A stretch of 49,024 bases of DNA, from positions 1 through 49,024 of the IMG/VR virus record IMGVR_UViG_3300021142_001129. One strand, 5' to 3'. Under the pieces are notes generated by a model. The model had not been told where the DNA came from. It worked only from the letters and a program-made list of their open reading frames with translations, and searched no databases. Position numbers and translations under genes: made by a program. This document shows positions 28,999-39,831 of this stretch, piece after piece; the first letter of the stretch is position 1, and every line of letters begins with the position of its first letter. This DNA comes from a virus.

Positions 28999-31261
28999 AC
29001 CGAGCGACAATCTACAAGCAGTATTTGAAAAGGCTATTGATACTGCTAAAAAGCTACACCACGAATACTTAACTATAGAGCATTTGTTGGCGGCTATGTT
29101 AATGGAAGAAAATTTCAGTGCCTGTTTAACAGAGTTTGGTGCTAAACCAGACGAATTAAAAACTCAATTACTTGAATATTTACAAAATAAATGCGACGAA
29201 ATTACAGTGCCAGACGTTGTAGTTAAACCTAAAAAGACACAATCAGTCGAACGTGTTCTAAATCGTGCGTTCACGCAAGTATTGTTTAACGGTCGCCAGC
29301 GGATTGAGCCTACAGATATTTTCCTAGCAATGATGGGAGAAAAACGTTCATGGGTACACTATTACATTACTCTTGCTGAAATTGATAAAGATAAGTTTGC
29401 CGCTTTCTTAAACAGCAGTATTGACGAAGAAGTAGGTGAGGAAGCCGTAGGACAAAGTAGTAAAGTCCTACAAGCATATACCACAAACTTAAACGAAGCA
29501 GTTAAGAAAAATAAGATTGATCCAGTTATTGGTCGTATCGATGAATTAGAAAATATTGCGCTGGCTTTGGGTCGTCGTAGTAAAAACAATGTGATCCTTG
29601 TAGGAGATCCAGGTGTAGGTAAAACAGCCATTGCTGAAGGCCTAGCCTATAATATTGTCAAGGGTGCTGTTCCAGAATTCCTTAAAGACTATACCGTTTA
29701 TAACTTAGACATTAGTGCTATGTTAGCAGGCAGTAAATATCGAGGAGATTTTGAAGAACGCTTTAAAATGATCCTTAAGATTCTTACTAAGAAAGGTAAG
29801 ACTGTATTGTTCATTGACGAAGCACATATGATTAGTGGCGCAGGTTCAGCAGGCAATAGTGCTAACGATCTCGCTAACATGATGAAGCCTGCACTGAGCA
29901 AAGGCAACATCAAGGTTATAGCATCAACTACTTGGGAAGAATATCGTAAACACTTTGAAAAGGATCGTGCATTAATGCGTCGTTTCCAACGCATCACTGT
30001 TGACGAGCCTACACAAGAAGTAACATTACAAATCCTTAAAGGTATTAAGAAATATTACGAAGGATTCCATAATGTTAAAATTCGTAATGATGCTCTTACA
30101 GCCGCTGTGAAACTGTCAGTCAAATATCAGACAGATAAGAAATTACCAGATAAAGCTATTGACTTAATTGACTTGGCCTGCTCGCGATTCAATCTTAAAC
30201 TTGCAGATGACCGTGTTATCGGTGAACGCGAAATTCAATACGAACTTGCTAAAGTTGTTCAGATGCCTGAAGACAAGATTATGGAAACTGAAAGCAGTAC
30301 TATGGCATCCCTCGAAAATAACGTTCGTCAAGATGTCTACGGCCAGGATATGGCTGTTACAGAAATTGTAGATAAGATTATTGTAGCACAGGCTGGTTTG
30401 AAATCTGAAAACAAACCAATTGGTAGTTTTGTGTTCATGGGTCCTACTGGTACAGGTAAAACTGAAACTGCCAAGAGCCTTGCCAAACACTTAGGTGTTA
30501 AGTTGCTACGTTTTGATATGAGTGAATACCAAGAAAAGCACAGCATCAGTAAGTTGATTGGTAGTCCTCCTGGTTATGTTGGGTTTGAAGACAACGCAGG
30601 ATTGTTAATTACTCAAATTCAAGAAAATCCAAACGCTGTTCTATTGTTTGATGAAGTTGAAAAATCACATCCAGATGTCAGCACAGTATTGTTGCAAATG
30701 ATGGATAATGGATTTATCACTGGCTCAAACGGCAAACAGGCTGACTGTAGAAACCTAGTGTTGATCCTAACTACTAATGCAGGTGCCAATGAAGCTGAAA
30801 AGAACGCCATTGGATTTGGTAGTCAAGAAAAAGAATACAGTGACAAAGACCTTAAAAAGTTCTTTACTCCTGAATTCCGTAATCGATTAGATGCTGTTAT
30901 TACCTTTAATAAACTACACCGAGACACAGTAGTTAAGGTAGTTGAGAAATTCATTGACGAACTTAGAACACAAGTTAAAGATAAGAGTGTCAAGATCAAA
31001 GTTGATAAAGAAGCTATCAATTGGTTTGTTGATAATGGTTACGACAGTAAGATGGGTGCCCGTCCTCTACAACGTGTTATCGATAAAGAAATCAAACGTG
31101 ACCTTGCTAAGATGATGTTGTTTGGTGAATTGCGAGGCGGTGGCTGGTTGTATGTATCAGTCGACAATAATAAGATTGTATTAACTTCTAAACCAAAGGC
31201 CGCTGAAGTACCTTTGCTAACTGTAGAAGATATTGTAGAAAATGCAAATCAAGACAACTAA
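28991..31261 (+). CDS. clpA: ClpA-like AAA+ unfoldase
   Basis: At 756 aa it has full ClpA length and order: N-domain (EYLTIEHLLAAMLMEENF), first AAA+ module with Walker A GDPGVGKT at 205-212 and Walker B VLFIDEAH, second AAA+ module with Walker A GPTGTGKT at 484-491 and Walker B LLFDEVEKSH, then the arginine-finger and sensor region (FFTPEFRNRLD). No ClpB-type middle coiled coil is present. The tripeptide I607-G608-F609 sits exactly where ClpA/ClpX carry the IGL/IGF loop that docks on ClpP. It may therefore redirect the host ClpP protease, since no ClpP is seen in this window. AAAGGAAA precedes the start. Confidence 0.93.
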   Translation: MVEPSDNLQAVFEKAIDTAKKLHHEYLTIEHLLAAMLMEENFSACLTEFGAKPDELKTQLLEYLQNKCDEITVPDVVVKPKKTQSVERVLNRAFTQVLFNGRQRIEPTDIFLAMMGEKRSWVHYYITLAEIDKDKFAAFLNSSIDEEVGEEAVGQSSKVLQAYTTNLNEAVKKNKIDPVIGRIDELENIALALGRRSKNNVILVGDPGVGKTAIAEGLAYNIVKGAVPEFLKDYTVYNLDISAMLAGSKYRGDFEERFKMILKILTKKGKTVLFIDEAHMISGAGSAGNSANDLANMMKPALSKGNIKVIASTTWEEYRKHFEKDRALMRRFQRITVDEPTQEVTLQILKGIKKYYEGFHNVKIRNDALTAAVKLSVKYQTDKKLPDKAIDLIDLACSRFNLKLADDRVIGEREIQYELAKVVQMPEDKIMETESSTMASLENNVRQDVYGQDMAVTEIVDKIIVAQAGLKSENKPIGSFVFMGPTGTGKTETAKSLAKHLGVKLLRFDMSEYQEKHSISKLIGSPPGYVGFEDNAGLLITQIQENPNAVLLFDEVEKSHPDVSTVLLQMMDNGFITGSNGKQADCRNLVLILTTNAGANEAEKNAIGFGSQEKEYSDKDLKKFFTPEFRNRLDAVITFNKLHRDTVVKVVEKFIDELRTQVKDKSVKIKVDKEAINWFVDNGYDSKMGARPLQRVIDKEIKRDLAKMMLFGELRGGGWLYVSVDNNKIVLTSKPKAAEVPLLTVEDIVENANQDN

Positions 31262-31880
31262 ACGACTTTTTAATAACAAGTACCAGTACAAAATTGTTTT
31301 AGTTTGTGCTGGTGCTAGTTATTTTAAAAATAAAGACTTTTCACACTCGATTGGCTTAATTAGTAAACTTAATATCGACGAAAGCAAAATTACCGCTAGA
31401 TATGGATATAAAAGAAATTCTATCAAAGATCCGTCTGACAGAGATTATGCGTTATCATTATTAAACATAATAAAAGATCTAACAGACTACGAAATTCGTA
31501 TTGAAAATCCCTGGATCAGTTTTTATACTAATAGTAGAGAAGATGTTGATAAATTATGCTCAGTAAGTATTGATCAGGTAAAGTATATCAGCGTTCCGCC
31601 AAGCTCTGGCATCATTGCAGAAAATACTGTACTGTTACCAAAAATTGATTTTGAATACCGTGTAACTTTAGGTAAAACTACACAAGAACACTCAGCATTT
31701 ATCGAGTGGGCTAAAAGTAATAAAAAACTCAAACTAACTAAAAGTTGTGAGCGAGATTTAACTAGATCAAACAGTTGGGGCGGTACATACTTCTATTGTA
31801 CCGGCGATAACAACTTACTTATGGCAAAAATGCACTTGGGCGGCTCAATAAACAAGGTTGAGCGGGTAGTCAAAGCATAA
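31242..31880 (+). CDS. hypothetical protein, 212 aa
   Basis: Not recognised. It is a basic soluble protein with KYQYKIVLVCAGASYFKNKD near the N-terminus and a C-terminal segment (GGTYFYCTGDNNLLMAKMHL) that looks like beta-hairpins. It overlaps the clpA-like gene by 20 bases and so closes that operon. The pattern of short strands suggests a small alpha/beta fold. No motif points to a reaction. Confidence 0.55.
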   Translation: MQIKTTKRLFNNKYQYKIVLVCAGASYFKNKDFSHSIGLISKLNIDESKITARYGYKRNSIKDPSDRDYALSLLNIIKDLTDYEIRIENPWISFYTNSREDVDKLCSVSIDQVKYISVPPSSGIIAENTVLLPKIDFEYRVTLGKTTQEHSAFIEWAKSNKKLKLTKSCERDLTRSNSWGGTYFYCTGDNNLLMAKMHLGGSINKVERVVKA

Positions 31881-31898
31881 GTTCTTATTCCTGCAAGC

Positions 31899-31906
31899 GA
31901 TAAATA
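31899..31906 (+). promoter_or_regulatory. late-promoter-like GATAAATA
   Basis: GATAAATA lies in the 72-base gap before the gene at 31953, within the 15-base string GCAAGCGATAAATAC that also occurs at 18802-18816. It is a good candidate for the start of the late transcript that covers the internal-protein-like cluster. Confidence 0.45.
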
Positions 31907-31952
31907 CACTAACCGCAGAGTTTTCTGCTGAATCTTAACGACAGGATTAAAA

Positions 31953-32324
31953 ATGCGTATACGTGAATTGCTTGAAGGCAAATATTTTAATGATTTAGAC
32001 TTTGTTAGTCACGGTGAAAAGGGACGAGAAATCAACTTTGATCTACCAGAAGATCTAGTGTATTTCATGCACAACGATGATCACGCATATCGTCGCCATA
32101 CACATCCAGTAATTTCACACTGTCTAGAAAGAATTAATAATAACAAAAAAACTAGTGCAGAAGTTTTTGAACCTGCTGTAAAAGAATGTTACAAGATGTA
32201 CATTCACCAGTTTCCTATAAGAGAATTACCAGACGATCTTGACGAAGAACTTACTAAACAAATCTGCGATAAACTACATGAAGAATTAAAACAGCATGTA
32301 GAAAACGACAAATATAAGGATTAG
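31953..32324 (+). CDS. possible internal virion protein with capsid-targeting-like N-terminus, 123 aa
   Basis: Function unknown. The first residues MRIRELLEG fit the pattern M-x-x-(R/K)-(E/Q)-(L/F)-(L/F/I) ending in L-x-E, shared with five neighbours and resembling the T4 capsid-targeting sequence cut by the gp21 prohead protease. The rest is acidic and helical with several His residues (HNDDHAYRRHTHPVISHC), which could bind metal. First gene of the cluster, following a late-promoter-like motif. Confidence 0.55.
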   Translation: MRIRELLEGKYFNDLDFVSHGEKGREINFDLPEDLVYFMHNDDHAYRRHTHPVISHCLERINNNKKTSAEVFEPAVKECYKMYIHQFPIRELPDDLDEELTKQICDKLHEELKQHVENDKYKD

Positions 32325-32326
32325 TA

Positions 32327-33487
32327 GTGTTACTTCGAGAGCTTTTCCTCAAAGAAACTGATGCAGTGCCTGCTAAAAAATTAGGACGGGCATTTAATCA
32401 TCCAGAGCATTTTGTTTTCTTTCATGGTGCTGATGGAGCCAGAGAAGCTATTCAACACTATGAAGAAGTATCAGTAGAAAAGCCTGGAGCAACTACTATT
32501 CGTAAAAAATGGGACGGCAATCCTCAAATCTACTGGGGTAGAGAACGTAAGAACGGTCCTCTTATCTTAGCCGGACATAACGGATGGTCTCGCGGTGCTA
32601 AAGGAACTAATCCGGAAGAGATAGCAGATTTTATTGCCAACAAGAGCGGTAAACCTGGAACTCCTGAGCAAACTGCTGAACGTCAACGCTTTGCTCAAGA
32701 ATTTGCAAGTCTACACCCAATCTTTGATCGTGCAACTCCAAAAGATTTTGTTGGATTTGTCTATGCTGACGGACTATTTTTAAAGCGTCCCCCATTAGAC
32801 AAACAAGGTGTATATACATTCTGTCCTAATCCTAATAGTAAAACTTGTTATCATGTAAGGGCAGACAGCGAGTTAGGACAACGAATCGCTAACGCACAAG
32901 TTATGGTAGTAGGCCATGCATATTTTCCACAGTTTGGAATGAGTGACGAATCGCAAACTCCAATTGACGATTTTAGTCAATTTAATCATACTGCTGGATT
33001 AATTGTGCAAGGTCCTATGTATAATCCTACTGCACCAGAACACGATACTAGTATTTTAAAACCTTTAAAACATTATTTAGAAAAACACGGACCTGCGATA
33101 GATTCTTTCTTAGCCAGTATTCCTGCTACCGACAAAGAAGGTATTTTTTATAAATTTGCCAATCAAATGAGTCGAGGTGGGCAGTTTGATAGTGTTGACA
33201 ATAATATGTTCTTTCAATGGATGTCAAATCCTGCAAATAAAATAAGTGCTAAAAAAGCTGAACATATACGAGCTATGGCACAACATCATGGCACAGCGTT
33301 GAGTGCTATCTGGGAACTGATGAAAAAATTACGTCATGTAAAAGATCAACAGCATGGTGCTTTAGAAGCACAGCCTAAACCAGATATATGGGATACTCAC
33401 GGCGAAGGCAACGTAAGATACGCTCAACCGGGCAAGCATAAATATGGTAATGTAAAGTTTGTACCTACCAGTTGGACTCCAAAATGA
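32327..33487 (+). CDS. nucleotidyltransferase/ligase-superfamily-like protein with KxDG motif, 386 aa
   Basis: The segment TTIRKKWDGNPQIYWGR carries K61-W-D-G64, the KxDG motif in which the lysine is adenylylated in DNA/RNA ligases and capping enzymes. The following AGHNGWSRGAKG may be the RxG-type motif. Related KWDG proteins occur widely in T4-like marine phages with unproven activity. The C-terminal half is helical (SAKKAEHIRAMAQHHGTAL). It starts at GTG 32327, supported by AAGGA at 32316-32320; the N-terminus MLLRELFLKET fits the capsid-targeting-like pattern. Coupled to the next nucleotidyltransferase by ATGA overlap. Ligase activity is a hypothesis. Confidence 0.55.
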   Translation: MLLRELFLKETDAVPAKKLGRAFNHPEHFVFFHGADGAREAIQHYEEVSVEKPGATTIRKKWDGNPQIYWGRERKNGPLILAGHNGWSRGAKGTNPEEIADFIANKSGKPGTPEQTAERQRFAQEFASLHPIFDRATPKDFVGFVYADGLFLKRPPLDKQGVYTFCPNPNSKTCYHVRADSELGQRIANAQVMVVGHAYFPQFGMSDESQTPIDDFSQFNHTAGLIVQGPMYNPTAPEHDTSILKPLKHYLEKHGPAIDSFLASIPATDKEGIFYKFANQMSRGGQFDSVDNNMFFQWMSNPANKISAKKAEHIRAMAQHHGTALSAIWELMKKLRHVKDQQHGALEAQPKPDIWDTHGEGNVRYAQPGKHKYGNVKFVPTSWTPK

Positions 33488-34575
33488 ATTTAAGACAGTT
33501 ATTTGAATCACATCATAAGGCCACAGCAAGTTTTTGTTTTGGACGATTCAACCCTCCGCATCAAGGGCATGCAGAAGTATGGTCAGCTGTAAAACATGCA
33601 GGACATAAATGGTACATTGGTACCAATCCTAGTACTATTGGTCCAAATGATCCTTTAACATTTGATGTTAAAACAGCGTGGATGACAGCTATTGATCCTG
33701 AAATTAAAGGACATATCTTAGGAGAAACTAGTGTAGTTACCCTAGCCGCTAAAATTTATGCCGATGTAGGCGAAGGCGCTACGATTGCTTATGTTACAGA
33801 TGCAACTGACTGGGCATGGGCAGGTAAACTGTTAATGGATTATAACGGAAAAGAAAGTAATCATGGGTATTATAAATTTGCAAAAATTATACATGTACCT
33901 AGCCCACGAGTAAGTTCAGCTACAGCTTTGCGCACTGCGGCTCGTGCAGGAGATATGGCAGCATTTTATGCCGCGGCTGGCACTGATCCAGACCTACGTG
34001 TAAACGGCAAGCATTACTTTGACACCGTGGTTGCCGCAGTAGGTGAGCATCCTGAAAAAGTTAAACGTGCTAAGAAAGAAAAAGCCACCGCAGAAGATGC
34101 CGCCGGAGTAGGAACTATTACAAAACAAAACACTACAGTTGATGTAAATAAGAATACACCCGCAAAGAATTTACGTGCCTTTAATCTAATTAAAGAAACA
34201 AACGCAAGGATAAGAGCAATGAGAGCCAAAGAATTTATAGCAGAAGAAGCTACTGCATTTAGCGTAGATGTGCAAAATGCTTTACCAAATGTACGCATCC
34301 ATCCGGATTTAGATAACTCTAGTCCGTATAAAGCCTATCGTTATGGTATTGCTATGGCGGGTGCTCCTAATATGCAAGGAGATCCACTAGCTGGAATTGG
34401 CCAAAAAATGATTACAGTAGGATATACCGATGCTGATGATGCTATTATTGCGTCTGCTGATAAGTTTATGAGTTCAAAAAGTAAACCTATTACCAGTAAA
34501 GGTAGTCAAGAACTAAAAGATACTAATAAAACAAGTCCTGTTGCCAAAGTTAAACGCAACAAGTATGGTGTGTAA
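33484..34575 (+). CDS. HxGH nucleotidyltransferase fused to an internal-protein-like C-terminal domain, 363 aa
   Basis: Residues 14-200 form a Rossmann-type nucleotidyltransferase: CFGRFNPPHQGHAEVW with H26-x-G-H29, and near 140-155 PSPRVSSATALRTAARAG, equivalent to the ISSTxIR ATP-binding motif. Such enzymes join a nucleotide to a phosphate-bearing small molecule (for example NMN or pantetheine phosphate); the substrate cannot be told. From residue 246 a second part begins with its own MRAKEFIAEEA and is homologous to the two small genes downstream. I chose ATG 33484 (ATGA overlap) over an earlier in-frame start. The N-terminus MNLRQLFES fits the capsid-targeting-like pattern. Confidence 0.75.
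   Translation: MNLRQLFESHHKATASFCFGRFNPPHQGHAEVWSAVKHAGHKWYIGTNPSTIGPNDPLTFDVKTAWMTAIDPEIKGHILGETSVVTLAAKIYADVGEGATIAYVTDATDWAWAGKLLMDYNGKESNHGYYKFAKIIHVPSPRVSSATALRTAARAGDMAAFYAAAGTDPDLRVNGKHYFDTVVAAVGEHPEKVKRAKKEKATAEDAAGVGTITKQNTTVDVNKNTPAKNLRAFNLIKETNARIRAMRAKEFIAEEATAFSVDVQNALPNVRIHPDLDNSSPYKAYRYGIAMAGAPNMQGDPLAGIGQKMITVGYTDADDAIIASADKFMSSKSKPITSKGSQELKDTNKTSPVAKVKRNKYGV
34219..34575 (+). other. possible in-frame nested gene (internal start), 118 aa
   Basis: Inside the nucleotidyltransferase gene an in-frame ATG at 34219 is preceded by AAGGA at 34206-34210, eight bases upstream. The product would begin MRAKEFIAEEA, nearly the same as the start of the gene at 34575 (MRAKEFITEQ), and would be a full member of the small paralogue family. 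Either the two are fused, or both long and short products are made. Confidence 0.45.
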
Positions 34576-35087
34576 TGCGAGCTAAAGAATTTATAACAGA
34601 ACAACATACAACTATAAAGCAGGCTGAAGCACGACTTAAAAAAACTCAGCCTGCTAAAGAGTATCATCCTATAAAATTTAAACATGGCAAATTAGGTGTT
34701 CCTGTAGCAGATGATCCGCACGATACACATAGCCTACATCAAAGTAATACAGAATATGGTAGCAATCGTGGTGATCTGTCGACAGAAGCCAATGCGGCTA
34801 TGCCTGGAGCATTTAGTGTGGAAGATTTACCTAGCGATTTCTATGGCCTATATAGATTAGGAATGGGATTAGCTGCCGGAGACCGTAACGTGGCGGCTGA
34901 AGACAATATCGGCAAACACCCATTTATTATGCCTTTCGCTCGTGAAGAACATGCTAAATTTGATAAAGAGATCAAACGTCAAGGACATAAGACCAAGTTA
35001 AGAACAAGCCCTGACAGTTTAGAGTTATCAACTAATAATACAACTAGCCCAGTAGCTGGTCGTAAACCTAACAAGTACGGTGTATAA
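34575..35087 (+). CDS. internal-protein-like paralogue with TSPVA...YGV tail, 170 aa
   Basis: Begins MRAKEFITEQ (capsid-targeting-like, I-x-E site) and ends TSPVAGRKPNKYGV. A central domain near residues 90-135 (FYGLYRLGMGLAAGDRN, then HAKFDKEIKR) is homologous to the C-terminal part of the preceding gene and to the protein at 35311. Overlaps both neighbours by TAATG. No enzymatic motif is seen. The shared start, domain and tail indicate tandem duplication. Confidence 0.6.
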   Translation: MRAKEFITEQHTTIKQAEARLKKTQPAKEYHPIKFKHGKLGVPVADDPHDTHSLHQSNTEYGSNRGDLSTEANAAMPGAFSVEDLPSDFYGLYRLGMGLAAGDRNVAAEDNIGKHPFIMPFAREEHAKFDKEIKRQGHKTKLRTSPDSLELSTNNTTSPVAGRKPNKYGV

Positions 35088-35314
35088 TGGACGAATTAGC
35101 AAGCCTTAAGAAATTAGCAGGTATTAAAGAATACAGTGGTCTGCAACCTTATGGCGGAAGTAATATTAGTATTACTGGAACTGAAAAAGCTGTATTAATG
35201 CGTGAAAATAATATTAAACCTGGTACAGCAGAATGGTTTCAACTATGGTTTAGTTTGCCCTATATGACTGGCGAACAACCTGTCGGTGCTGGTATTAGGA
35301 GCCGTAAAAAATGA
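35087..35314 (+). CDS. hypothetical protein, 75 aa
   Basis: Small protein, not recognised. It begins MDELASLKKLAGIKEY and has an aromatic centre (TAEWFQLWFSLPYMTG) that looks like a buried helix rather than a membrane span. It is coupled on both sides (TAATG and ATGA) within the internal-protein-like cluster and lacks their N-terminal pattern and YGV tail. Confidence 0.55.
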   Translation: MDELASLKKLAGIKEYSGLQPYGGSNISITGTEKAVLMRENNIKPGTAEWFQLWFSLPYMTGEQPVGAGIRSRKK

Positions 35315-35748
35315 AAATGCGTGAACTACTAAATGAAAACTCCGATGGAGGATCTTCGACACTCGACGACGAGTCTAGTTCATCGCCATCTGGATCTGGT
35401 TCTGCATTAAGTGGTACTGCTGGTAAAATCCATCCGCATCACGATGCGGTTATTAAAAATTTAACTAATTTTCCAGATCTAGCTGGTAGATACTACGACA
35501 TGTATCGATTTGGTGTAAGTATGGCAGGCATGCCTAGACCAGAGAATGATATGGCTCCTACTGGTCCGTGGAAAAACGACTTATTAACAGCAGCCTACAC
35601 CGAAGCTGATGAAGAAATTATCAAAGCAAGTGCTAAAGCTATGGGATTAAAGATGACTACTCTTAGTTCTAATCGCAGTGATGAACCACAAGGAACAAAC
35701 ACTACAAGCCCAGTAGCCAAACGTAAACCTAACAGATACGGAGTTTAA
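35311..35748 (+). CDS. internal-protein-like paralogue with TSPVA...YGV tail, 145 aa
   Basis: Begins MKMRELLNEN (L-x-E pattern), then an Asp/Ser/Gly-rich spacer (about 12-38). The shared domain follows (YYDMYRFGVSMAGMPRPEND, then YTEADEEIIKASAKAMG), and the end is TSPVAKRKPNRYGV. It is the third member of the family formed with the 3' part of 33484-34575 and the gene at 34575. No catalytic motif is seen. Confidence 0.6.
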   Translation: MKMRELLNENSDGGSSTLDDESSSSPSGSGSALSGTAGKIHPHHDAVIKNLTNFPDLAGRYYDMYRFGVSMAGMPRPENDMAPTGPWKNDLLTAAYTEADEEIIKASAKAMGLKMTTLSSNRSDEPQGTNTTSPVAKRKPNRYGV

Positions 35749-35749
35749 A

Positions 35750-36253
35750 ATGAAGATTAAAGAATTATTAGAAGGCAGACACGGGTATGATGACAGTGGT
35801 ATGAGTCTTGCTCCTGGCCACGATGAAGGCGAAGATAGTTGGGAGTACAGTGCGGCACACGATAGAATAGGTGCGGGGGATCCTCGTAGACATCGTCAAC
35901 ATAGACGCGGTTTTATGCATGTCGATATTCCGCATGATGTGTACATCGACGGTCGTAAATGGAAAACATTTGGATCAATGGAACATGCCAGTGCAGTTGC
36001 TAGAAAACTAGAAGCTAAAGGTAAGAAAGTAGATATTGTTCGAACACCAAAAAGTGTGGAAGAATCAGCAACAGAAGGTGCTACAAGTTCAGCAAGTGTC
36101 GCTAGTGTAGCAAATCCTAATCAAGCCTACAGTAAAAAACCAGTAAAAAGCGTTAACGCACTAGATCAAAACAGTGTAAGTTTGTTTGGCGCACCTATAG
36201 AAACTATGAAAAACAAGCCTTCAAAAAAGGCCGCTATCATCAAAAGACGATAA
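35750..36253 (+). CDS. possible internal virion protein, 167 aa
   Basis: Begins MKIKELLEGR, matching the capsid-targeting-like pattern with an L-x-E site. The middle part (HVDIPHDVYIDGRKWKTFGS, then AVARKLEAKGKKVDIV) looks like a small alpha/beta domain that reads as a generic peptide or nucleic-acid binding module. The C-terminus is basic (KKAAIIKRR). It overlaps neither neighbour but lies one base after the previous stop. Function unknown. Confidence 0.55.
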   Translation: MKIKELLEGRHGYDDSGMSLAPGHDEGEDSWEYSAAHDRIGAGDPRRHRQHRRGFMHVDIPHDVYIDGRKWKTFGSMEHASAVARKLEAKGKKVDIVRTPKSVEESATEGATSSASVASVANPNQAYSKKPVKSVNALDQNSVSLFGAPIETMKNKPSKKAAIIKRR

Positions 36254-36256
36254 ATA
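36249..36256 (+). promoter_or_regulatory. late-promoter-like GATAAATA
   Basis: GATAAATA overlaps the stop of the gene before and lies 24 bases upstream of the start at 36281, which has a good GGAG ribosome binding site. Likely a late start for the next three genes. Confidence 0.45.
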
Positions 36257-36280: not shown

Positions 36281-38140
36281 ATGCCAGCAGAATTAGATCA
36301 ATTAAGCCCAGAAATGGGAGACCAAATGAATTCACCAGATCACGTGATCGGTACACACGGTGACGAAGTAGATCGTGAAGGTGAAATGGCTAAGATCGAC
36401 TTAGAAAAAGCCGCTTCATATGCACACAAACTAAGCCAAGAGCTACAAGATAATACTCAACTAGAAGCCTGGGTACAGAAGAAAATAAGCGTTGCCGCTG
36501 AAAATCTTGCTAGTGTATACCATTATATGGCATATGAAATGAAAATTAACGAAATGGCCAAGACCCTGAAGCAAGCTGGCGTGATCACTGAAGGTAAAAA
36601 TCTTGACGTAGTTCGTAAATTAATCGAAGCTAAAGAAAAAATTAAAGATCTTAAGAAAGCTCAAGCTGAAAAGATCAAGGCTAAGAAAGAACAAAAGATG
36701 GACGAGTCTTTCATGGAGCCATGCGGACACTGCGGTGGCGCTGGTCATGTAGAAAAGAAGATTCCTGAAGAAGTTAAAGGTAAAGTTGAAAAATACAATA
36801 AGTTAACTAAGGCTATGAAAGCCGCTCACAAGCGTTTAGATAAAAATCATAACGGTATTCCAGATGATCAAGAAATGGAAGAAAACTTTGACGGTGAGCG
36901 TGGCGGAGATCAAGATACTCCAAGCAAGTTTAATGTACAAAAAACTGGCCCTAACAGCACACGATATACTCGTAAGTCTAAGACATTTAGCGATGAGCAT
37001 GATGGCGGCGATGGCAAGAAGAGTCATGCTAAATCAAAATCGGCTGCTGAAAAGAAAGCCGAAGCTCCACACCAAAAGAAATCTAAAACAGGTACTTGGG
37101 GAATGGAGAACGGTGAGAAGTTTGATAATCGTAAGAAAGAAGAATCATTTGCCGAAGGTGCAAAACCAGATTTTTTAGATCTAGATAAAGACGGCAACAA
37201 GAAAGAATCAATGAAGAAAGCTGCCGCTGATAAAAAGAAAGGCGCAAAAAAAGTTGATGAAGCTAAAATGACTCCAGCTCAACTAGCGCATCATCACGCT
37301 ACTGAATACGCTAAACATCACAAGACAGGTAATTTAGAACTTGCAAGTCATCACAAAGATGAGTGTGAAGCATGCGGTGGCACTATCAAACACGGTGCAA
37401 TGGGTGAGTGCTATCATAGCCATCCACACATCAACAACGGTACTATGTATGAGTGCCCAGGTAACATGGCCACTACAATAGCAGAAGCTAAACCAAGCGC
37501 AGGTCAAAGAAGTCAAGACTCTGCTATAAAAGTAGCTCAGATTGGCAAAAGCAAAAGCCCTGGTGCAAACTTAAAACAAGGAGCAGAGGACGCTCTTGAA
37601 AAAGGCAATCATAAAAAGATTGATCAAATACATCAATATGCAACGACTACTACTCCTACAGGTAGAGCAAAGAAAGTTTCCGAAGCTAAACCTAGCGCAG
37701 GTCTAAGTGCCGCTAAGAAGTCTGCTACAGTTAAGAAAGCTAAAGCAGGCGGTGACATTGGTAAGCCAGGCAAGAGTTTTGACAAAGTAGCTAAGTCAGC
37801 AGGTGGTGGTGAGAAAGGTAAGAAGATTGCCGCAGCCGCTATGTGGAAGAACATTAAAGAAACTACTGCTTACATCGAAGAAAAGAAAGCTGTAGAAAAG
37901 AAAGCTGACAAAGACTACGATGGCGATGGCAAAATCGAATCTGGTAAAGATGAGTACATGGGTAGCAAAGACAAAGCTATCAAAGCCGCAATGGGCAAGA
38001 AAGAAACTGTTAAAGAGTCTACAGACTTTGCACGTATGCAAGAACAACTAGCACGTTTGAATCGTAGTGAAACACAAACTTTAAAAGAAAGTAGTGAAGC
38101 AGATCAAATTCGTGCATTAACTCAAAAGCTATTGGGATAA
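36281..38140 (+). CDS. lysine-rich metal-binding-like virion/core protein, 619 aa
   Basis: A very Lys/Ala/Glu-rich protein. Residues 30-130 form a helical domain (LEAWVQKKISVAAENLASVY). A CGHCGGAG zinc-knuckle-like motif lies near 148-155, and a Cys/His cluster (CEACGGTIKHGAMGECYHSH) near 365-385. Three EF-hand-like loops are seen: DKNHNGIPDDQE near 186, DLDKDGNKKES near 299 and DYDGDGKIESGKDE near 545. The phrase EAKPSAG is repeated (near 405 and 468). The basic, disordered character suits a prohead core or DNA-associated internal protein. The role is an inference; the metal motifs are plain in the sequence. Confidence 0.65.
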   Translation: MPAELDQLSPEMGDQMNSPDHVIGTHGDEVDREGEMAKIDLEKAASYAHKLSQELQDNTQLEAWVQKKISVAAENLASVYHYMAYEMKINEMAKTLKQAGVITEGKNLDVVRKLIEAKEKIKDLKKAQAEKIKAKKEQKMDESFMEPCGHCGGAGHVEKKIPEEVKGKVEKYNKLTKAMKAAHKRLDKNHNGIPDDQEMEENFDGERGGDQDTPSKFNVQKTGPNSTRYTRKSKTFSDEHDGGDGKKSHAKSKSAAEKKAEAPHQKKSKTGTWGMENGEKFDNRKKEESFAEGAKPDFLDLDKDGNKKESMKKAAADKKKGAKKVDEAKMTPAQLAHHHATEYAKHHKTGNLELASHHKDECEACGGTIKHGAMGECYHSHPHINNGTMYECPGNMATTIAEAKPSAGQRSQDSAIKVAQIGKSKSPGANLKQGAEDALEKGNHKKIDQIHQYATTTTPTGRAKKVSEAKPSAGLSAAKKSATVKKAKAGGDIGKPGKSFDKVAKSAGGGEKGKKIAAAAMWKNIKETTAYIEEKKAVEKKADKDYDGDGKIESGKDEYMGSKDKAIKAAMGKKETVKESTDFARMQEQLARLNRSETQTLKESSEADQIRALTQKLLG

Positions 38141-38892: not shown

Positions 38893-39831
38893 ATGGACAT
38901 GAAGCGTATTCTACAAGCCATGGACAGCGCGGCTACTAAACCTGTAGAAGGTGTTTCTGATATGGCTAAATTTTTATCGGTCGTAGATAAAAATGCCAAT
39001 GTTCAAATATTACAAGAAGGTAATCCACATAAAGTATCATTGCCAGTGCAAATGGCCATGCAACATTATCAATCACCTCAAATCGATTCTACACCAATTG
39101 TTAAAAAGAAAACCAGTATTCTAAAAGGCTATTATCAATCAGTTGAAGAAGAACTTGCAGAAGAACAAACTAGTAAACAGCAATTAATAAATCAATATGC
39201 AAGCAAAATAGCTGAACGTGTATTAATGAAAGAATCAGCAGGCGCACAACAGGCAGCCATTGCTATTGCTAAGAAAAAATCCGGCAAATACGATAAAGAA
39301 GGCAAGCGTATTAAAGAAAGTACTGTAGATCAAAATGGTACTCAGCATCATGCAGGATTTAATCCTACAGGTGGCCCGGGCATGCAAAATTATGTAGTAG
39401 ACGAAACTCCGCTACATGACTTTGATAAAAATGATCCTATTAAAACAGGTGTTTCTCTCCCTGGACACAATCCTGGAACGATTGAATATCGTATTATGAG
39501 AGCCCGTAGTCAACTTAAAGATCTAGCCAGTCGTGCAGAAAGTAATGACCTACTTACATGGGAATCTATCGCTAAACATTTCCCAGAACTAGCAATGAAC
39601 ATGCGACTGATCGAACATGGTATACAAGAGTTGGCAGCCAAACGCAAGAAGGGCGGAAGAGGCACACATAATATTCCTAAAGAAATAGGTGAATCAAATC
39701 CTATTAAAGAAGCCAACGCTAAGAAAAAGAGTCTAAAAAATAGTAACCCATGTTGGACGGGTTACCATCCTGTAGGTACCAAAAAGAAGGGCGGACGTAC
39801 CGTTCCTAACTGCGTACCAAATAAAAAATAA
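38893..39831 (+). CDS. hypothetical phage protein with conserved Cys-containing C-terminus, 312 aa
   Basis: Function unknown. It has a helical N-terminal half with many Gln/Glu/Ala, a central segment (EYRIMRARSQLKDLASRAES, then HFPELAMNMRLIEHGIQELA) and a basic C-terminal signature, NPCWTGYHPVGTKKKGGR followed by VPNCVP. I recall this C-terminal pattern from T4-like marine phage proteins of unknown function. It ends the run of internal-protein-like genes; a hairpin and a new promoter follow. Confidence 0.6.
   Translation: MDMKRILQAMDSAATKPVEGVSDMAKFLSVVDKNANVQILQEGNPHKVSLPVQMAMQHYQSPQIDSTPIVKKKTSILKGYYQSVEEELAEEQTSKQQLINQYASKIAERVLMKESAGAQQAAIAIAKKKSGKYDKEGKRIKESTVDQNGTQHHAGFNPTGGPGMQNYVVDETPLHDFDKNDPIKTGVSLPGHNPGTIEYRIMRARSQLKDLASRAESNDLLTWESIAKHFPELAMNMRLIEHGIQELAAKRKKGGRGTHNIPKEIGESNPIKEANAKKKSLKNSNPCWTGYHPVGTKKKGGRTVPNCVPNKK

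Follow-up and report, generated by a model that had tools for sequence, protein, structure and literature searches.

A T4-type N-terminal peptide on a cluster of candidate head-packaged enzymes in a T4-like myovirus

In bacteriophage T4, the internal proteins IPII and IPIII as well as Alt carry a capsid-targeting sequence (Mullaney and Black 1996, as cited in PMC9026906). The first ten residues of IPIII suffice; residues 4 and 7 serve targeting, and residues 8 and 10 serve processing (PMC9026906). Internal proteins of T4-like phages are diverse, with conservation limited to the targeting sequence (PMC3012670). The N termini read from the T4 record are MKTYQEFIAE for both ipII and ipIII, MELITELFDE for alt, and MAKINELLRE for gp24. 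In cyanophages, three reports list NMNAT-like proteins or cytidylyltransferases detected in virions by mass spectrometry, namely, S-CREM2 gp154 (PMC10665884), S-SZBM1 _140 (PMC9146016), and S-SCSM1 ORF91 (PMC9602691), and give an NMNAT-like protein of S-CBWM1 as a further virion component (PMC10665884, PMC9602691, and PMC9146016). Here, we describe a seven-gene run at positions 31953–36253 of the IMG/VR virus record IMGVR_UViG_3300021142_001129, whose full 49,024-base length is called the window. Six of the seven genes begin with a near-common peptide, which is likely to be a T4-type capsid-targeting propeptide on packaged enzymes. Because the run bears a label like the head-loading one of T4, its enzymes are probably carried within the particle and delivered to the cell together with the DNA. 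The evidence consists of the peptide, its modularity and conservation, a late promoter motif, the protease gene of a relative, and peptide-bearing homologues detected in virions, for which published mass spectrometry was joined to N termini read in this analysis. From these, we infer cleavage, injection, the enzyme activities, and packaging in the window lineage.

All features described below are on the plus strand, and genes are named by their start positions. The peptides are MRIRELLE, followed by G (31953–31976, predicted cut after E8); MLLRELFLKE, with a GTG start (32327–32356, predicted cut after E10); MNLRQLFE, followed by S (33484–33507, predicted cut after E8 from an alignment of 30 homologues); MRAKEFITE (34575–34601); MKMRELLNE, assigned by the (I/L)-x-E rule (35311–35337); and MKIKELLE, followed by G (35750–35773), whose relatives start with MRLIDIINE, MKIMEILSE, MKRNEIISE, or MKITEIITE. 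In the 32327 protein, which belongs to the family DUF6267, E5 and E10 are nearly invariant among 40 homologues. An earlier note on this DNA had claimed such a peptide for six genes, with 35087 as the exception, and an (I/L)-x-E site in each; all the peptides are indeed found at the gene starts, with E at residue 8–10 in all six. A first loose regular expression gave many chance matches at starts and internally and was dropped in favor of a fixed rule, a T4-modeled pattern, and family counts. The window has 45 genes coding for 60 residues or more; six of them match the fixed rule, (I/L)-x-E with E at protein residue 8–10, and all six lie inside the run (hypergeometric p = 8.6e-7); this p value is post hoc because the cluster had been picked in the earlier note for this very feature.

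The motif search across related phage genomes proposed in that note bore out the pattern. Scans of IMG/VR with the DUF6267 protein and the nucleotidyltransferase (NT) encoded by gene 33484 as queries gave 87–88 related loci, mostly kin of the window, and the peptide was found again in dozens of related contigs. From the related loci, 41 protein families of five or more distinct members were obtained. The rule was matched by 78% of the 45 distinct members of the 31953 family, at a rate of 0.77 by NT and its paralogues, 0.57 by DUF6267, and 0.52 by the 35750 family, a cluster that also takes in 38893-like proteins. The rate is no higher than 0.10 in 30 of the 41 families and is 2.7% at internal Met positions. 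Under a hydrophobic-hydrophobic-x-E rule modeled on the T4 proteins, the rate of the DUF6267 family is 0.90. The peptide heads four unrelated families, and it precedes different mature domains also within a single genome.

The peptide behaves as a module. All of 30 NT homologues have M1, L3, and R4, and at least 90% keep F7 and E8; next come a linker, whose length ranges from 4 to over 50 residues, and then the conserved GRxNPxHxGH core. DUF6267 orthologues exchange the forms MLLRELF, MRLRELF, MRANEFLRE, and MRAFEFLNE ahead of a variable linker, and some have a small inserted Cys module. In the AlphaFold model of the DUF6267 protein, the mean predicted local distance difference test (pLDDT) score is 91, with residues 1–15 below 50 except residue 4; in that of NT, residues 1–10 are at ~57, and most of the domain beyond is above 90. 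In S-CAM1-type cyanophages, both enzymes start straight at the domain without the peptide (79 DUF6267 and 62 NT sequences). By these alignments and models, the peptide lies outside the folded domain and is detachable. Similar N termini could also be functionless leftovers of gene duplication or common translation-start sequences, given that three genes of the run do have a paralogous domain and that several run genes overlap or abut. Widely diverged sequences nevertheless retain the peptide, ahead of unrelated folds and of linkers that differ from family to family, and in a second, marine lineage these two enzymes bear another peptide of T4-like form (MINFSSFLTE and MKKFSEIIE), which makes such an origin highly improbable. 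These marine contigs, akin to Methylophilales phage Melnitz, carry the more T4-like forms MINFSSFLTEDKG and MKKFSEIIEARGD on both enzymes.

A T4-type late promoter motif, GATAAATA, lies ahead of the first gene of the cluster (31899–31906) and is conserved in relatives: it stands ~47–54 nucleotides upstream of the 31953-type gene in 34 of 40 distinct relatives. A possible internal late promoter, CATAAATA, precedes the NT gene (33437–33444), and HATAAATA is found upstream in 20 of 63 family members. The motif search also placed GATAAATA ahead of gene 36281 (36249–36256). Upstream of genes, NATAAATA occurs seven times in the sense and zero times in the antisense orientation in the window, and 19 versus 7 times in a 270-kb relative (G002). 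By motif, late expression of the cluster is suggested. The cluster leader has an inverted repeat, GCAGAGTTTTCTGC, at ~31907–31940, immediately downstream of the late promoter motif, and similar ones are present in many relatives.

No head genes were seen among the translated genes of the window, a 49-kb fragment, and the prohead protease gp21 was therefore sought in relatives. G002, whose DUF6267 protein starts with MRLRELFVE, encodes a gp21-type Peptidase_S77 (PF03420, E = 7.8e-27) between portal-like and gp22/gp23-like genes. Its gp22-like scaffold has the top (I/L)-x-E enrichment of 215 proteins (21 versus 8.3 expected, z = 4.9), which is what the T4 cutting rule, if valid in the window lineage, would predict. 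Another explanation is that the cluster proteins serve as components of the prohead core (scaffold), which the protease would largely degrade, as with T4 gp22, gp67, and gp68, and not as injected enzymes. Enrichment in (I/L)-x-E, which a degraded core protein would show, is seen in the proteins of 38893 (z = 4.1) and 31953 (z = 3.0). The DUF6267 and NT domains, in contrast, are highly conserved, their internal sites are un- or mildly enriched (z = 0.5 and 2.2), and they keep enzyme-like motifs (KxDG and HxGH) for which there is no reason in scaffolds; we regard this explanation as quite improbable.

NT (33484–34575, 363 residues) is a HIGH-type, NMNAT-like protein fused to a C-terminal cargo-like domain. 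Its N-terminal domain matches PF01467 above the cut-off and has the HxGH motif. NadM, NMNAT, and PPAT are the best Foldseek matches, and a profile search gave weak matches to NadR and NadM (E ~0.05). Motif and predicted fold place it in the HIGH superfamily, and the activity is probably an NMN/NAD-type adenylyl transfer. More speculatively, NT may be an adenylyl or cytidylyl transferase, perhaps acting in NAD synthesis at the start of infection; packaging of phage NAD/ADP-ribose enzymes in myovirus heads has been argued elsewhere (PMC9503650). An internal peptide, MRAKEFIAE (34219–34245), already pointed out in the earlier note, is present at NT residues 246–254 and is predicted to be a second cut site, separating the two domains. 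The E of this site is kept in 27 of 30 NT homologues, with V, L, I, F, or M at P3 in 26 of those 27; the surroundings vary (VAEG, LAEG, IAEG, and LQEG) while hydrophobic-x-E stays. The C-terminal domain is also encoded on its own, with a peptide in front in each case: by 34575, which is paralogous both to the NT C terminus (E = 8e-7) and to 35311 (E = 3e-9); by 35311 itself; and, far away, at G002:35126, where the start reads MRAKEFIDE. The simplest reading is that NT may be a precursor of two cargoes, which the prohead protease would separate. Conservation of the internal site lends indirect support to a cut after the glutamate. In S-PM2 (AJ630128), p138–p139 show the DUF6267 protein split across two frames, the second part being in-frame with NT, through either a frameshift or a sequencing error.

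The DUF6267 protein (32327–33487, 386 residues) matches PF19782 (E = 4.3e-9, 36.6 bits versus a cut-off of 27). The ligase-like motifs K61-W-D-G64 and E360-G-x-V363, together with K377, are invariant among 40 homologues and suggest a ligase-type nucleotidyltransferase. Neither a fold search (DNA ligase IV at a probability of 0.33 only) nor a profile search gave a convincing match in the PDB, and the label "ligase-like" is for this reason motif-based only. Literature searches, with subscription papers outside their coverage, found no paper on DUF6267.

The virion proteomes of cyanophages link the peptide to packaging. The three virion-detected NTs bear a T4-like peptide: MKNFSSFLTEA in S-CREM2, MRFRQFIIEA in S-SZBM1, and MKSFLQFLKEA in S-SCSM1. 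The S-SZBM1 protein matches the 33484 family (E = 3e-8); for the NMNAT-like protein of S-CBWM1, no match was obtained with the query used. The DUF6267 proteins of the same three phages (S-CREM2 gp87, S-SZBM1 _141, and S-SCSM1 _257) start at the domain without the peptide, and they are absent from the published virion lists, although non-detection is weak evidence. The S-SZBM1 pair comes close to a natural control because the genes _140 and _141 overlap by one base. When the annotated starts of S-CREM2 were scanned with a pattern modeled on T4 IPIII, six matched, and five of these six proteins are virion-detected (p = 0.003): the SAM hydrolase gp6, gp13, the kinase gp14, gp136, and the NT gp154; gp175 (55 residues) is the undetected one. 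The virion-detected Cas9-like gp12 has RFASFMAEA a few residues past its start. The arrangement of gp6, gp12, gp13 (a small protein), and gp14 (an APH-like kinase) in S-CREM2 (OR473000) resembles a second cargo cluster. The earlier note's suggestion that the cluster proteins are packed in the head gains support from the three peptide-bearing homologues, and its comparison with the T4 targeting sequence agrees with the same design in ipII/ipIII, alt, and gp24, the detachable peptide, the late promoter motif, and the gp21-type protease in a relative. It had further suggested that the ligase-like protein and NT would be injected enzymes not described before. Packaging of an NT is not new, as NMNAT-like proteins have been reported in S-CBWM1, S-SZBM1, S-SCSM1, and S-CREM2 virions; the tagged DUF6267 protein and the link of the packaged NT to a targeting peptide appear to be new. 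No targeting peptide is named in the available parts of PMC10665884, PMC9602691, and PMC9146016, and a search for "capsid targeting sequence" with cyanophage, with subscription papers outside its coverage, found only a T4 review.

Several observations weigh against assigning the peptide to capsid targeting. The cut sites of DUF6267 often carry F or Y at P3, not I/L. S-SZBM1 _191 and _192 and S-SCSM1 _30 match the pattern and are absent from virion lists, and the S-CREM1 NT has MKRYTNFLSEA while no NT is described among the 14 detected proteins of that phage. The virion data come from cyanophage homologues and none from the window lineage, the window being a 49-kb fragment without head genes. 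The authors on S-CREM2 and S-SCSM1 warn that the presence of such enzymes could reflect contamination in the CsCl preparation (PMC10665884 and PMC9602691); the targeting peptide common to these enzymes disfavors contamination. Lastly, gp21 is encoded in all 10 genomes tested, including phages whose enzymes are without the peptide. The idea, put forward for testing in the earlier note, that the peptide tracks with a gp21-type protease was accordingly rejected; since gp21 also occurs where the peptide is missing, the protease is at most a necessary element and on its own predicts nothing.

This lack of prediction by gp21 would also suit a docking helix for some other assembly, for example, a replication or nucleotide-metabolism complex, on which the peptide would be neither cleaved nor packaged. 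The location of the cluster fits such a role: clpA flanks it on one side and the polymerase gene on the other, and the cyanophage counterparts lie next to uvsX, primase-helicase, and mazG. The late promoter motif at the cluster does not, and cleavage, unlike docking, accounts for the conservation of E both where the peptide ends and at the internal site. Moreover, peptide-bearing homologues are in virions with the adjacent peptide-less partner unlisted. A docking helix is, in our view, unlikely.

Here, we propose how a T4-type targeting peptide would act in this lineage. The cluster would be a late operon for head-packaged cargo proteins. By binding the scaffold core of the prohead, the peptide would bring about enclosure of the protein to which it is attached; a cut by the gp21-type protease after (I/L)-x-E would then free the mature protein inside the head. 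NT would be made as a two-part precursor with the second cut between the NMNAT-like domain and the C-terminal domain, and the freed proteins would enter the host along with the DNA. A fuller version, in which a dedicated late operon of injected proteins has one genome-readable propeptide, the two-cargo NT precursor is split in the head, and peptide gain or loss switches an enzyme between work in the infected cell and virion delivery, is offered tentatively, as a possibility that we would not quite call probable.

The window derives from an uncultured T4-like myovirus of bacteria, named from the translations of PhoH, clamp loader, ClpA, tail and baseplate genes, and DNA polymerase. A DNA similarity search found no named phage similar to the window at the DNA level; the closest named match of the DNA polymerase (49.6%) is from Sinorhizobium phage Phosso (469 kb). 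The run sits between clpA and the polymerase gene, and the order ClpA–31242–31953–DUF6267–NT–...–polymerase is mostly retained in relatives. In addition to the DUF6267 and NT genes, it comprises the first gene (31953–32324, 123 residues), a peptide-bearing member of a family without assignment and without a Pfam match above the cut-off; two free-standing copies of the C-terminal domain recognized by paralogy, one with an NKYGV end (34575–35087, 170 residues) and the other paralogous to it (35311–35748, 145 residues); the one peptide-less gene (35087–35314); and a last peptide-bearing gene (35750–36253, 167 residues), which by translation and Pfam search belongs to a family without assignment. 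The start of the 35087 protein, MDELASLKKLAGI, has an RLAG motif in common with DIRRLAGLK at the end of the G002 gp22-like scaffold; with two clear cases only, this could be a different tag. A Dps/ferritin-like gene, missing from the window, lies in the same cluster in relatives (e.g., G006:87642–88082 and G002:169981–170415). Downstream of the run, the 38893 protein has the highest (I/L)-x-E enrichment among window proteins (8 versus 2.5). The C terminus encoded by 38893–39831 (residues ~280–308) holds a Cys module, NPCWTGYHPVGTKKKGGRTVPNC, also found in S-SZBM1_139 and S-CREM2 gp160, both virion-detected, and in the Melnitz NT protein; it is possibly a module of packaged proteins. Residues 286–311 encoded by 36281–38140 form a module, AKPDFLDLDKDGNKKESMKKAA, in common with virion-detected S-CREM2 gp111 (E = 1e-5), and a motif of this type is also near the start of virion-flagged S-SCSM1_92.

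If the peptide is a targeting label, virion cargo of T4-like phages could be read from genomes via ~10 residues. Cyanophage virion enzymes have so far been reported singly and partly dismissed as possible contamination. The three packaged NTs together with the S-CREM2 SAM hydrolase, kinase, and two proteins without assignment have a common T4-type label, and the peptide-less DUF6267 partners are unlisted; the label turns the question of cargo or contaminant into a simple experiment. An enzyme of NAD/nucleotide metabolism and a ligase-like enzyme would then be first actors of infection in abundant aquatic phages.

Compared with described systems, the cluster resembles T4 in that proteins with nothing else in common start with a short peptide whose end is hydrophobic-x-E, in its late promoter motif, and, for the relative G002, in a gp21-type protease; ELFDE of Alt resembles RELFVE and LRELFE of the window lineage. 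It differs from T4 in its cargo (DUF6267, the NMNAT-like enzyme, and the NKYGV domain, in one conserved cluster), in a (K/R)-rich peptide that is often one residue shorter, and in an internal site that joins two cargo domains in one NT precursor. The NTs of S-CREM2, S-SZBM1, and S-SCSM1 are of the same family as 33484, virion-detected, and headed by a T4-like peptide, whereas the window NT has the extra C-terminal domain, and the DUF6267 peptide, present in the window lineage, is missing in these three phages. NadM, a bifunctional NMN adenylyltransferase, is the best fold match of the NT domain and has the HxGH motif, but NT is only ~15% identical to it and has no Nudix domain. In phage Melnitz (Kyanoviridae), the DUF6267 and NT genes are near each other, and each product starts with a peptide that ends in hydrophobic-x-E; its peptide is nearer to that of T4 (FSSFLTE type), and its other neighbor genes differ. 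To our knowledge, Melnitz has no virion proteome. A system of this kind is known from T4; what appears new here is how broadly the label is used, its presence on the DUF6267 protein, the putative cargo operon, and the internal site.

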